A stretch of DNA of 12,799 nt from Actinomycetota bacterium (lineage in GTDB: Bacteria; Actinomycetota; Actinomycetes; Nanopelagicales; Nanopelagicaceae), in contig WLOR01000038.1 in the NCBI GenBank assembly GCA_009699165.1, forward strand, positions 1-12,799, given 5' to 3'. Below the pieces are notes generated by a model. That model was not told the origin of the DNA. It saw only the letters and a program-made list of their open reading frames with translations, and searched no databases. Positions 1-7,424 of this stretch are shown here, in pieces. Numbering within the stretch: the stretch's first letter is position 1; each line of letters opens with the position of its first letter. The position numbers and the translations under genes were made by a program.

Positions 1-123
1 ATTGCAATGGTAGATAAAGCCGAATACAAGCGACGCCAATATCCGCCTGGCACAAAGGTGTCGGCCCGAGCTTTTGGTAAAGATCGACGACTTCCAATGA
101 CATCGCGCTGGAATGAGTCCTAA
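1..123 (+). CDS. nadE: NAD+ synthase (glutamine-dependent type), C-terminal fragment
   Basis: Frame 1 is open from the window edge to the TAA at 121-123 and gives 40 residues. The fragment contains [20 protein letters not shown] followed by DRRLPM, which I recognise as the conserved C-terminal tail of actinobacterial glutamine-dependent NAD+ synthetases. Those enzymes make NAD+ from deamido-NAD+, ATP and glutamine in the cytoplasm. Only the extreme C-terminus is present, so neither the nitrilase-like glutaminase domain nor the ATP-pyrophosphatase motif can be checked. The assignment rests on tail similarity recalled from the family. The gene is complete at its 3' end. No clear intrinsic terminator separates it from the cysK leader region. 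Confidence 0.75.
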
Positions 124-127
124 CTTA

Positions 128-144
128 TTGCAAACTCCTTGCAA
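128..144. promoter_or_regulatory. Dyad of two TTGCAA motifs upstream of the cysK leader promoter
   Basis: TTGCAA occurs at 128-133 and again at 139-144, 11 bp apart start to start, with the spacer ACTCC. Each hexamer is itself palindromic, so the pair reads both as a direct and as an inverted repeat. It lies at about -52 to -36 relative to the predicted start at 180, where an activator would sit, and the promoter has no good -35 hexamer. The role as an operator is inferred, and no regulator can be named. Confidence 0.35.
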
Positions 145-167
145 CTCGCACTATTTAAACTATTAAG

Positions 168-180
168 TAGAATTGCCATA
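168..180 (+). promoter_or_regulatory. Predicted promoter -10 and start point of the cys leader-cysK-cysE transcript
   Basis: TAGAAT at 168-173 fits the actinobacterial -10 consensus (TANNNT, best TANAAT). The usual 6-nt gap places the transcription start on position 180, which is the A of the leader ATG. No convincing -35 is found at 145-150 (CTCGCA). The mRNA would therefore begin with the leader start codon. Confidence 0.5.
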
Positions 181-257
181 TGAAATCAATTATTAATTGG
201 TTATTTACGCGCAACCGCGTTATTGATTTCTGCCTGTCGACTTCCTGCAGCTGCTGA
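180..257 (+). CDS. Cysteine-rich leader peptide (putative cysteine attenuator of cysK-cysE)
   Basis: ATG at 180-182 to TGA at 255-257 encodes 25 residues beginning MKSIINWLF and ending CLSTSCSC. Three TGC cysteine codons (231-233, 246-248, 252-254) fall in the last eight codons, although cysteine is rare elsewhere in the window. There is no Shine-Dalgarno sequence, but a -10 hexamer (TAGAAT) ends six bases before the ATG, so translation is probably leaderless. The ORF ends 66 nt before cysK. Its Cys-codon region is complementary to the cysK ribosome binding site: 228-235 pairs with 314-321 with one mismatch, and 241-247 pairs with 313-319 with two G-U pairs. I infer that ribosomes slowed at Cys codons when charged Cys-tRNA is scarce would alter access to the cysK start. 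Leaderless polycysteine upstream ORFs with this kind of role are known in mycobacteria. The alternative is a chance short ORF. Confidence 0.6.
   Translation: MKSIINWLFTRNRVIDFCLSTSCSC
184..220 (+). other. Two small hairpins within the leader mRNA
   Basis: AATCAATT at 184-191 can pair with AATTGGTT at 195-202 around a 3-nt loop, with one G-U pair. ACGCG at 207-211 pairs perfectly with CGCGT at 216-220 around the loop CAAC. Both lie inside the leader peptide ORF upstream of its Cys codons. They could take part in alternative folding of the leader. Neither is followed by a U-run, so they are not terminators. A functional role is inferred. Confidence 0.3.
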
Positions 258-312
258 TTTTTATTGCACCTTCGCTCGCTTTAATTATCAATCAACCATT
301 TCACTTTATTCC

Positions 313-321
313 TAGGGAGAA
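313..321 (+). promoter_or_regulatory. Strong cysK Shine-Dalgarno with complementary leader segments
   Basis: AGGGAG at 314-319 lies 4 nt before the cysK ATG and is one of the strongest ribosome binding sites in the window. It can pair with the leader at 228-235 (UUCUGCCU against AGGGAGAA, one internal mismatch) or at 241-247 (CUUCCUG against UAGGGAG, two G-U pairs). Both partner segments overlap Cys codons of the upstream leader peptide, so this site is the likely point of control. Confidence 0.5.
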
Positions 322-323
322 TT

Positions 324-1250
324 ATGACAATTTATAACAACATCACAGAGGCGTTCGGAAATACACCTCTTGTTAGAATTAATAAAATAAACGATGGCGC
401 GCAAGGCAATGTCTATGCAAAGTTGGAGTTTTATAATCCAACATCGTCAATCAAAGATCGCCTAGGAATTGCAATGATCGATGCGGCCGAAGCAAGTGGC
501 GTACTCAAGCCCGGCGGAACAATTGTTGAGGCAACCTCTGGAAACACTGGGATTGGAGTTGCAATGGTTGCAGCAGCTCGCGGATATAAATCGATTTTTA
601 CCATGCCAGAGTCGGTATCAAAGGAGCGACGCAAACTCATTCTTGCTTTCGGAGCCGAACTTGTCTTGACACCTGCGGCCGAGGGCATGAAAGGCGCTGT
701 TGCCGCGGCCGAAAAGCTTGGTGAGTCAGGAGCCGTCTTAGTTCGCCAATTTGAAAATGAGGCTGGCCCTGCAATTCACTATGCAACCACCGGCCCAGAA
801 ATCTGGCGCGATCTTGATGGAAAAGTCGATGCATTCGTCTCGGGAATTGGAACCGGCGGAACAATCACGGGCACGGGTCGATTCTTAAAAGAGAAAAACC
901 CCGCAATTAAAGTATTTGGTGTCGAACCTGCGGCTTCACCAATTTTAAATGGTGGAGCTCCAGGACCACACCCACTCCAAGGTATTGGACCAAACTTTAT
1001 TCCCAATATTCTCGATCGCACCGTCTATGACGAGATTCTGGATGCAACTGCAGATGATGCAATCAAATATGCGCGCAGAGCAGCAGCAGAAGAGGGAATC
1101 TTGGCTGGAATATCTTCAGGTGCAACTTTGTGGGCAGCCATTGAAATAGCAAAGCGTCCGGAGTTTGCCGGAAAAAACATCGTTGTAATTCTGGCCTCAT
1201 CAGGCGAAAGATATCTTTCAACAATCTTGTATCAAGATTTAGCGGAATAA
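324..1250 (+). CDS. cysK: Cysteine synthase (O-acetylserine sulfhydrylase)
   Basis: This is a 308-residue cytoplasmic PLP enzyme that makes L-cysteine from O-acetylserine and sulfide. Visible family features in order are the N-terminal GNTPLVRI (12-19), the PLP lysine K44 in NPTSSIKDR, the substrate loop TSGNT (71-75), QFEN (142-145), the phosphate-binding loop GTGGT (176-180), GISSGA near residue 262, and the end GERYLST. The length is normal for CysK. The start is fixed by the Shine-Dalgarno AGGGAG at 314-319. The gene directly abuts cysE, so substrate supply and cysteine synthesis are co-expressed. It is probably controlled by the upstream cysteine-rich leader ORF. A cystathionine beta-synthase is unlikely because there is no regulatory domain and the next gene is a serine acetyltransferase. 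Confidence 0.95.
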   Translation: MTIYNNITEAFGNTPLVRINKINDGAQGNVYAKLEFYNPTSSIKDRLGIAMIDAAEASGVLKPGGTIVEATSGNTGIGVAMVAAARGYKSIFTMPESVSKERRKLILAFGAELVLTPAAEGMKGAVAAAEKLGESGAVLVRQFENEAGPAIHYATTGPEIWRDLDGKVDAFVSGIGTGGTITGTGRFLKEKNPAIKVFGVEPAASPILNGGAPGPHPLQGIGPNFIPNILDRTVYDEILDATADDAIKYARRAAAEEGILAGISSGATLWAAIEIAKRPEFAGKNIVVILASSGERYLSTILYQDLAE

Positions 1251-1763
1251 ATGTCCTTAATCGATCGAATTGTTGAGGACCTCGATAACGCCCTTGCTCA
1301 TGATCCAGCTGCGCGAAGTCGTTTAGAGGTCGCTTTGGCTTACCCCGGCGTGCATGCAGTTTGGGGTCATCGAATCTCACATTATTTGTGGAACCACGGA
1401 TTTAAATTGATTGCACGAATTCATTCAAATTTTATTCGAACCTCTACAGGCATAGAGATTCACCCTGGCGCAAGAATTGGTCGAAGATTTTTCATTGATC
1501 ATGGAATGGGAGTCGTCATCGGTGCAACCACCATTATCGGCGACGACGTCATGCTCTACCACGATGTCACATTGGGGGCTCGTGGCGGTGATTTTGGAAA
1601 ACGGCATCCAACCATTGATAACGATGTAGTTATTGGCGCTGGTGCGCGCGTGCTCGGAAACGTGACCGTGGGCGAGGGATCGCGCATCAGCGCTAACGCA
1701 GTTATTACAAAGGACTTACCGGCGCGGAGCATGTTAAACAGCGCTGAATTCTTTGTTATTTAG
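1251..1763 (+). CDS. cysE: Serine O-acetyltransferase
   Basis: This 170-residue enzyme transfers acetyl from acetyl-CoA to L-serine, giving the O-acetylserine used by CysK. A short helical N-terminus contains the serine-site motif DPAARS (18-23). A left-handed beta-helix of hexapeptide repeats then runs from about 66 to 153, with FIDHG (H84), HDVTLG (104-109) and GKRHPTI (116-122). The protein is of the short SAT class. It stops soon after the last coil: the usual VVG-x-PAR closing segment is replaced by a tail ending AEFFVI. A C-terminal isoleucine is the residue that SAT inserts into the CysK active site in the cysteine synthase complex, so the tail may be functional. The ATG follows the cysK TAA with no gap, which implies translational coupling. 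The other frames around 1700-1760 do not restore a longer family C-terminus, so a frameshift seems unlikely. Confidence 0.93.
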
Positions 1764-6321: not shown

Positions 6322-6687
6322 TTAACACTTACCACAGAGGCCAAAAATCTCGGCTGTGTGCCCAACATCTCTGAATCCATGTTCTTGAGCAATTACCTTT
6401 GCCCATTTTTCTACAGCTCCACCTTCAATCTCAACCGTATCCCCGCAGCCTTTACAGACCAGATGGTGATGGTGAGTATTTCCGCAGAGTCGATAAATTG
6501 CTTCTCCATCATCGCGACGGAGAATGTCAACAATCTTGTCGTTGACAAGAGACTGTAACGATCGATAAACGGTTGTTAAACCAATACTTTCGCCTTCGCG
6601 TTGCATTAAACGATAGACCTCTTGTGCGCTTGCAAAACCACCTGCGCGCTCAAGAGTGCTAAGAACCCTCGGATTAGATCTGCTCAA
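6322..6687 (-). CDS. zur: Fur-family regulator, probably the zinc regulator Zur
   Basis: The 121-residue product has a winged helix (about 5-65, with the recognition region GLTTVYRSL at 36-44), then YRLCG, HHHHLVCKGCG (72-82) and a terminal LCGKC. Cysteines 78/81 and 118/121 make the structural zinc site. The sequence follows actinobacterial Zur closely (HHHHLVC, VEIEG, HTAEIFG). It would repress zinc uptake genes when zinc is bound. The start is taken as TTG at 6687, because it overlaps the stop of the ZIP transporter gene as TTGA, has GGGAA six bases before it, and gives a family-like beginning. An ATG eight codons upstream (6711) is the alternative. Linkage to a ZIP gene and a Fur-type palindrome favours Zur over Fur, but the metal specificity is inferred. 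Confidence 0.88.
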   Translation of the reverse strand: MSRSNPRVLSTLERAGGFASAQEVYRLMQREGESIGLTTVYRSLQSLVNDKIVDILRRDDGEAIYRLCGNTHHHHLVCKGCGDTVEIEGGAVEKWAKVIAQEHGFRDVGHTAEIFGLCGKC

Positions 6688-7424
6688 CCGATATTCCCAA
6701 CAATAAGCCACATTGCAACAACACCAGTCACGGTAGCCAGCATGGTGATTCTAGATGGATGACGTGAATGTGCCTCGGGTAAAATATGAGAAGTTGCAAG
6801 GTAGATAACAAAGCCAGAAAACATGGCCAGATAAAGCGAAAGTGATGCATCGCTTATAACTACATAGGTTCCAAGTGCTGCTCCACTTACACGCATGAGT
6901 GCATCTAGCCCAAGGAGTGCTATAGCTCGCTTGGTCCAGTGACCGCTTTTAATAAGAAGTGAGACAGTATTGAGCCCATCTGAAAAAGCGTGAGATAAAA
7001 TCGCTATAAATACTGCAAAGCCAAGAGCATCGCTAATTTTAAAAGATAGACCCAAAGCAACGCCATCGAGAAATACATGCCCACCCATTGCAAGAGCGCC
7101 AAGTGTGCCCGCGATATTTACGGAGTGGTCGTGCTCATGTCCATAATCTGACTCTGCTGGCTCGTGCGAACCAAAAATCTGCTCAGCAAAGTGCAGAGCA
7201 AGAAATCCAAGAACAAAGGCGATGGCAACAGTTGGAACATTTCCAAATTTTTGAGTATTGAGTTCAAAGACTTCGGGAAGTAAATCAAAGGCGACTAGTC
7301 CAAGAAGTAGGCCCGCTGAAAGTCCAAGGACAAGGTGAAGGCGGTCGCGTGAACGGATTGCGAGGAATCCGCCGGCCGATGTAGCGATAGCGGTAACTGC
7401 TGCTAGTGCGATAGCTGTATTCAT
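6684..7424 (-). CDS. ZIP-family metal (zinc) transporter
   Basis: The 246-residue membrane protein has about eight hydrophobic segments: roughly 3-22, 30-48, 63-82, 103-125, 132-155, 167-190, 195-214 and 228-244. Metal-site motifs are HVFLDGVALG (116-125) and LSHAFSDGLN (144-152), matching the paired H-x(3)-D/E-G signatures of ZIP transmembrane helices 4 and 5. HILPEAH follows at 213-219. A His/Asp-rich loop at 95-100 (GHEHDH) precedes helix 4, as in many ZIP proteins. It probably imports Zn2+ or a related divalent metal into the cytoplasm. It is the first gene of an operon with zur (TTGA overlap), and a Fur-family palindrome lies 15 bp before the ATG, so repression by metal-bound Zur is expected. 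Zinc as the substrate is inferred from context. Confidence 0.88.
   Translation of the reverse strand: MNTAIALAAVTAIATSAGGFLAIRSRDRLHLVLGLSAGLLLGLVAFDLLPEVFELNTQKFGNVPTVAIAFVLGFLALHFAEQIFGSHEPAESDYGHEHDHSVNIAGTLGALAMGGHVFLDGVALGLSFKISDALGFAVFIAILSHAFSDGLNTVSLLIKSGHWTKRAIALLGLDALMRVSGAALGTYVVISDASLSLYLAMFSGFVIYLATSHILPEAHSRHPSRITMLATVTGVVAMWLIVGNIG

Follow-up and report, generated by a model that had tools for sequence, protein, structure and literature searches.

The contig WLOR01000038.1 of a Nanopelagicaceae genome (assembly GCA_009699165.1), taken here whole and called the window (12,799 nt), carries a tiny conserved gene before cysK and cysE that very probably acts as a built-in cysteine gauge. 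Its product is a leader peptide with Cys codons near its end, and control is probably exerted by translational attenuation, with ribosomes stalling at these codons. Leaders of this kind are already known from other actinobacteria; the new element is a near-invariant distance between one Asp and one Cys residue. The explanation that appears likely is a leaderless Cys-sensing leader, a divergent relative of the NF042934/Ms5788A type, which controls cysK-cysE by stalling that frees the cysK Shine–Dalgarno (SD) sequence.

The mRNA would begin on the ATG at position 180 and encode the cysteine-sensing peptide. With ample Cys-tRNA, ribosomes would reach the stop codon at 255–257 and leave, the leader RNA could pair with the cysK SD, and little cysteine synthase would be made. 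With Cys-tRNA scarce, a ribosome would wait with a Cys codon in its A site, most likely that at 252–254, nine residues after an Asp (D+9) and assisted by the Cys codons at 231 and 246. The waiting ribosome would keep the Cys-codon segment unpaired and thereby free the SD. We infer the stalling, its trigger and control on translation rather than by Rho.

Leader gene, promoter and conservation

The leader open reading frame (ORF) lies at 180..257 on the forward strand, as do all features of this locus given below save the palindromic site, and has 25 codons plus stop (MKSIINWLFTRNRVIDFCLSTSCSC-stop). Asp16 (225..227) is the invariant D of an RVxD motif. Three TGC codons fall within the last eight sense codons: Cys18 (231..233, D+2) and Cys23 (246..248, D+7) are lineage-specific, and Cys25 (252..254, D+9) is found family-wide and is the probable sensing codon. 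An untranslated spacer of 66 nt (258..323) leads to cysK (324..1250), whose SD, AGGGAG at 314..319, was read from the sequence. The gene encodes cysteine synthase A (TIGR01139, 435.9 bits, above cut-off) and is followed by cysE, for serine O-acetyltransferase (1251..1763; TIGR01172, 220 bits, above cut-off). A preliminary description had given the ORF with its three TGC codons, the 66-nt gap to cysK and the interspersed, non-homopolymeric order of the Cys codons (C-L-S-T-S-C-S-C, the peptide ending CLSTSCSC-stop), and re-reading of the sequence bears it out on each.

It had also set the −10 element TAGAAT (168..173), which ends six bases 5′ of the leader ATG, as directing a start on that ATG. 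Comparison establishes this promoter position: a TANNNT ends 6–7 bases before the leader start, or before the cysK ATG where there is no leader, in 52 of 54 loci (all but L044 and L047), compared with 3.7 (standard deviation 1.7) in shuffles. The leader ORF and the promoter position are far beyond chance. In three loci with no leader (L004, L012 and L052), cysK's own ATG comes 6–7 bases past the −10 and the upstream site is kept, so that cysK itself would be leaderless and lack the gauge; L004 and L012 resemble natural deletions sparing the promoter. A consensus scan of the forward strand around the leader finds no sigma-70 promoter, because there is no standard −35. To judge from the loci compared, the transcript of cysK-cysE very probably begins on the leader ATG.

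Relatives were taken from the best 80 of 518 cysK matches, 78 of which were examined for a leader by position before cysK, with a loose motif, a Cys within the last ten residues and the spacing left free. Among these best 80, the nearest named relatives are mostly freshwater-type actinobacterial metagenome-assembled genomes, including Candidatus Planktophila and the complete genome IMCC19121; some assembled genomes seem to carry wrong titles ('Streptomyces griseus', 'Bifidobacterium breve'). Of the 40 examined loci with at least 83% cysK identity, 38 have the leader (all but L004 and L012), as do 11 more distant loci (L042–L049, L051, L056 and L058). By motif, none was found in the 20 remaining examined loci, mostly of other phyla. 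Distinct cysK leaders number 51 with the window and L091 included, or 52 with the partial L099. Within the genus, a strong match to the leader profile is present in each of the 11 genomes that have a close cysK. Genomes of the genus carry either the close cysK or a cysM-like homologue of 42–44% identity, and in 10 sister genomes (L118–L127) whose genes, to judge by eye, form putative mec-cysO-cysM operons, stretches of up to about 2.5 kb 5′ of cysM hold no motif-bearing short ORF.

The preliminary description had proposed an alignment of relatives, and had named loss of the ORF or its Cys codons among them as contrary evidence. Across 27 RV-type loci the leader ORF aligns without gaps, while the spacer drifts in sequence and length. 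Close relatives keep both ORF and Cys codons, save L004 and L012, where the leader is missing, and L035, in which the D+9 Cys is lost (2347–2424, ending CTA-stop), possibly a decaying gauge. In 40 Planktophila-type sequences the ratio of nonsynonymous to synonymous differences (pN/pS) is 0.157 overall and 0.099 for codons 9–25, and it is 0.112 for cysK itself (60 sampled pairs); entropy is 0.98 at third codon positions, 0.32 at first and 0.14 at second. Since the ORF is kept in relatives and pN/pS is low over codons 9–25, the leader is taken to be a translated, selected peptide, and comparison places it under strong purifying selection at the protein level.

A selection similar to that on cysK might be expected of a small working protein, for which the place before cysK would be secondary. 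This is very improbable. The product has 25 residues (18–33 among the cysK and paralogous leaders), its N-terminus is more variable than the rest (pN/pS 0.29, codons 2–8), in the loci read the ORF sits before cysK, DUF4395 or rhodanese genes, and its kin are annotated as leader peptides. Hardly more credible is a leader that merely boosts cysK expression through ribosome reinitiation and senses nothing. Reinitiation has been proposed for short leader genes, but the actinobacterial distance peak given for it is at 10–11 bp (PMC4833913), against 52–159 nt here, and the conserved Cys would be left unexplained.

Asp-to-Cys spacing and the leader family

The spacing was compared in 70 leaders: 40 Planktophila-type cysK, 11 other cysK, 11 DUF4395 and 8 rhodanese leaders. 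The Asp of the RVxD motif is in all 70, as the search motif required it. A Cys stands exactly nine residues after it in 69, the window included, the exception being L035 (39/40, 11/11, 11/11 and 8/8 in the four sets). The other Cys positions vary: D+2 is Cys in 40/40, 1/11, 0/11 and 8/8, and D+7 in 38/40, 6/11, 0/11 and 0/8, respectively. In 7 of the 11 DUF4395 leaders and 4 of the 11 non-Planktophila cysK leaders the D+9 Cys is the sole Cys after the Asp. Several of the DUF4395 matches stopped at profile position 20 or 21, short of the Cys. The D+9 spacing is a feature observed here and is no part of a curated family definition.

The near-invariant distance leads us to infer that the D+9 codon is the sensor and that the peptide segment preceding it matters, a hint that the nascent chain has a part in sensing. 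The preliminary reading of the Cys codons as a cysteine leader stands, but it had missed the other conserved residues at fixed spacing, which plain codon counting does not need. A refinement of the stalling explanation can be considered, namely that FT-R/K-x-R-V/I-V/I-D-F/Y-x-R, lying in the exit tunnel at a fixed distance, retards the ribosome as it reaches the D+9 Cys codon, so that one Cys codon is enough to sense cysteine. Such nascent-peptide-assisted arrest is possible, if short of an even chance. It agrees with the constancy of D+9 in leaders of three target genes where D+2 and D+7 vary, with the leaders that have a single Cys after the Asp, and with selection on amino acids while third positions are free. 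The same distance of nine is found in all 28 class-wide leaders that could be placed, but those were found with a model that ends at that very Cys, and common descent can hold a spacing without function. In addition, D+3 is Leu in 36 of the 40 Planktophila-type leaders and not the Arg found there in all of the other cysK (11/11), DUF4395 (11/11) and rhodanese (8/8) leaders, and one leader persists with an altered motif. The latter (L017, 2365–2442) has FIHDR in place of FTRNR with all Cys kept, and is a natural test of the motif's importance.

Paralogous leaders were sought in the genus with a profile of 30 leaders. Twenty match loci were read: in 11 the leader precedes a DUF4395 gene and in 8 a rhodanese gene; L158 yielded none. 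The window's own genome has the paralogous leader MSLASNFTKRRVIDFGRLAGSLCRM before a DUF4395 gene (L148, contig C13, 601–678, reverse strand). Pfam was run on one protein per target kind and the other loci were assigned by likeness: DUF4395 scores 136.4 bits (L148), Rhodanese 118.7 bits (L142) and Sulf_transp 54.2 bits for the next gene of L142. At that locus the leader (1510–1575, + strand) precedes a two-domain rhodanese gene and then a YeeE-type sulfur transporter, pointing to possible thiosulfate use; a search of the window's own genome, 83% complete, found no YeeE-type transporter. The leaders precede sulfur-related genes, cysK-cysE and rhodanese, and also genes for DUF4395, a domain of unknown function.

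Kinship with annotated leaders comes through the relatives. Of seven cysK leader peptides searched against NCBIfam, four hit NF042934 and/or NF042933, among them L056 with NF042934, 'putative leader peptide' (E 7.9e-5, 22.2 bits, cut-off 27), and L044 with NF042933, 'Ms5788A family Cys-rich leader peptide' (E 4.9e-5, 22.9 bits, cut-off 45). All eight paralogous leaders given match NF042933, the best being a DUF4395 leader (E 2.8e-6). The window peptide itself does not reach the curated cut-off of either family, and its homology is seen via the relatives only. Of 79 genomes in the class, 66 carry an NF042934 match, 54 of them over the cut-off; there is none in 14 control genomes and, at E 0.01, none in six genomes of the window's genus. 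A script placed 28 of 30 class-wide leader loci, and by eye DUF4395-like and rhodanese-like proteins each follow at least six of the leaders. Because of the family matches and the shared targets, the acI leaders look like divergent members of the class-wide set, with cysK-cysE as an added target. The window leader is, on these comparisons, kin to the Actinobacteria-wide Cys-leader family. The preliminary description had rightly likened it to a kind known from mycobacteria and had missed the class-wide kinship. Pfam gave one chance-level match under cut-off for five leader peptides, and Rfam three matches in window 1–1300, all far under the gathering score.

RNA pairing and the control of cysK

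Two alternative pairings of the Cys-codon region with the cysK SD had been proposed, of 228..235 with 314–321 (one mismatch) and of 241..247 with 313–319 (two G-U pairs). The geometry is as claimed, but singly neither is beyond chance: of 2000 synonymous recodings, 11% match as well as the first and 75% as well as the second. In the window's predicted free-RNA fold, 241–246 pairs with 314–319 (P 0.52–0.57), and the first segment is partly held by a 5′ stem (182–190/222–230). The second segment has another base in many relatives. An RNAalifold consensus of the 27 RV-type loci has two helices, the first SD pairing and a hairpin within the ORF. This does not make the first pairing a proven, specific one, and it was rejected as such, since the peptide and the SD largely dictate its columns and since the recodings equal it so often.

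Accessibility of the SD, ranked against synonymous recodings, has a median rank, on a scale to 1, of 0.07 in RVVD loci (28), 0.17 in DUF4395 loci (11) and 0.27 in rhodanese loci (8). A ribosome placed at the last Cys codon is predicted to open the SD in 26/28 RVVD, 8/11 other cysK, 9/11 DUF4395 and 6/8 rhodanese loci. The claim that the leader masks the SD is therefore supported for the RVVD class, where the SD is less open than in the recodings, and, less clearly, for DUF4395; it does not extend to RIVD or the other cysK loci and has no clear support in the rhodanese loci.

A number of results weigh against the gauge as described. With regard to the RNA, masking is not conserved, the median rank being 0.66 in RIVD (12 loci) and 0.44 in other cysK loci (11), and a ribosome at the last Cys codon is predicted to open the SD in only 5 of 12 RIVD loci. 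In the window the probability that the SD is unpaired rises modestly on stalling, from 0.10 to 0.21–0.24, and folding of the leader in full is not better than that of shuffled sequences (z −0.56). Among the DUF4395 leaders, pairing with the SD region of the same locus beats the mean of swapped partners in 5 of 11 cases, so the pairing is not locus-specific. With regard to distribution, no leader was found by motif in seven loci of 64–74% cysK identity (L050, L052, L053, L055, L057, L059 and L061) or in five cysK homologues from other families of the class (L093–L097), and 6 of the 8 rhodanese leaders have no −10 at the expected place, so a leaderless start is not the rule for the whole leader set. 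With regard to kinship, no NCBIfam model picks up the window peptide even at E 10, L037 and L058 (two of the six other cysK leaders given) have no NCBIfam match, and the matches of relatives and paralogues, at 14–27 bits, are under the curated cut-offs (27 and 45).

By these models SD masking is likely in part of the leader family. For the rest it has no clear support, and transcription attenuation by Rho has to be weighed, although it seems rather unlikely. Rho would load on the C-rich, G-poor spacer once the ribosome has left and end transcription before cysK, and a stalled ribosome would block it. This would explain the unconserved masking, and C exceeds G in the spacers of 47 of 52 loci (fewer in 2, equal in 3), with 15 C and 7 G in the window. 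Rho has also been proposed for the cys leaders of Mycobacterium, P. acnes and B. longum, a prediction which its authors themselves call weak (Seliverstov et al., 2005; PMC1262725). On the other hand, the spacer is just 57–76 nt in 39 of the 52 loci, and the alignment of 27 RV-type loci shows no conserved C-rich motif. A classical transcription attenuator, with a terminator hairpin and U-run between leader and gene, is absent from 258–323; that spacer contains no intrinsic terminator.

The sole terminator-like site is the hairpin ACGCG-CAAC-CGCGT at 207..220, which was rejected as a terminator, as it lies inside the ORF and its tail is no clean U-run. Its middle pair joins the third positions of the Thr and second Arg codons and is Watson–Crick in 32 of 34 RV-type loci (17 GC, 8 AT, 7 CG, 2 mismatched), against 23% expected from codon usage. 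Among 12 RI-type loci it is Watson–Crick in one; these have lost the next stem pair, and their consensus fold has no compensatory change. Of five measures of covariation, three (the covariation score, the cells paired and the cells changed on both sides) are above every one of 500 shuffles, and the other two, both-side-change pairs (496/500) and further pair types (500/500), are not. The RV loci give six parsimony changes, which are only 3–4 independent pairs (sign test p 0.25). This covariation at synonymous sites is suggestive of the hairpin but not conclusive. The hairpin lies at a distance from the first Cys codon that would suit a his-type pause.

Upstream palindrome, significance and known systems

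A palindromic site, TTGCAAACTCCTTGCAA (core GCRAANNNTTYGC), is found at 128..144, centred about −44 from the leader start, and is a putative operator. The best core match is at −42 to −46 in 54/54 cysK loci and at −45/−46 in 11/11 DUF4395-leader loci, with at least 9 of 10 core positions in 51 and 9 loci, respectively; rhodanese loci have the site in place only in L146 and L147. The shuffle control is not independent, as the motif was drawn from these same sequences. Exact copies of the pattern GCRAANNNNTYGCAACTSGC in the window's own genome are confined to the cysK leader with its contig-end copy and to the DUF4395 leader; a single further place differs by one mismatch. Searching for the palindrome by itself, and tolerating one mismatch, is less specific (seven places, one of them a contig-end copy, versus two for a control pattern). 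Window bases 1–149 are identical to the end of another contig of this genome (C16:1–149), an assembly branch point just 5′ of the leader.

The palindrome resembles the Nur box, whose consensus it fits (PMC3919588), and a Fur-family gene adjoins DUF4395 in the L148 region. It is putatively an operator common to the cysK and DUF4395 leader promoters, a Nur-like regulator being a candidate only. The window also has a Fur-family regulator gene at 6322–6711 (−), with NCBIfam matches all under cut-off, and beside it, at 6684–7424 (−), a gene for a membrane protein like a ZIP-type metal transporter, named by eye.

A wider proposal is made more tentatively than that of arrest in this lineage. Actinobacterial Cys leaders may be arrest peptides, in which an RxRVVDFxR-like tunnel segment nine residues before the sensing Cys makes the ribosome hypersensitive to missing Cys-tRNA or cysteine, a single codon serving as sensor. 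To this the present lineage would add a hairpin located behind the halted ribosome, and an operator of Fur type tying the same genes together. The fixed spacing makes an old question, how Cys leaders lacking terminators or long Cys runs work, testable by mutation.

Four acI strains are reported to have no assimilatory sulfate reduction and to depend on reduced sulfur (Kang et al., 2017; PMC5301498), and a cysteine gauge on cysK-cysE therefore bears on sulfur rationing in an abundant freshwater lineage. The leader extends a system known from mycobacteria to streamlined genomes, as one of a small set of paralogous leaders whose targets are shared across the class. The preliminary statement that no such element had been described in this kind of organism holds in a literature search on Planktophila leader peptides, and wider searches brought no recognised description of such a leader in this branch, of its fixed peptide spacing or of a Cys arrest peptide, most subscription papers being outside the search.

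Among the closest known systems, NF042934 (cis_reg_atten) shares an RRxVDLxR-type motif, the Cys at D+9 and similar next genes (DUF4395-like and rhodanese-like, by eye); the window peptide has RNRVIDFCL and is missed by that model. NF042933 (leader_Ms5788A) presumably overlaps with the leaderless polycysteine upstream ORFs of mycobacteria. These also have a Cys-codon ORF close before sulfur genes, and the DUF4395 paralogues of the present lineage match NF042933; the window differs in its interspersed rather than contiguous Cys codons, its target cysK-cysE and matches under the 45-bit cut-off. The mycobacterial elements (Canestrari et al., 2020) are cited in PMC9031893, PMC9094748 and PMC13236596, and the last describes M. 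smegmatis cysteine genes as being under translation attenuation. The candidate cys leaders of Seliverstov et al. (2005; PMC1262725) likewise place Cys codons before cys operons without terminators and leave the mechanism open; theirs have Cys-codon runs and belong to Mycobacterium spp., P. acnes and B. longum cbs. The LEU element of actinobacterial leuA, described in that paper too (PMC1262725), shows a likeness of mechanism: its regulatory codons pair with the downstream SD, as proposed here, but they are leucine codons and a pseudoknot is involved.

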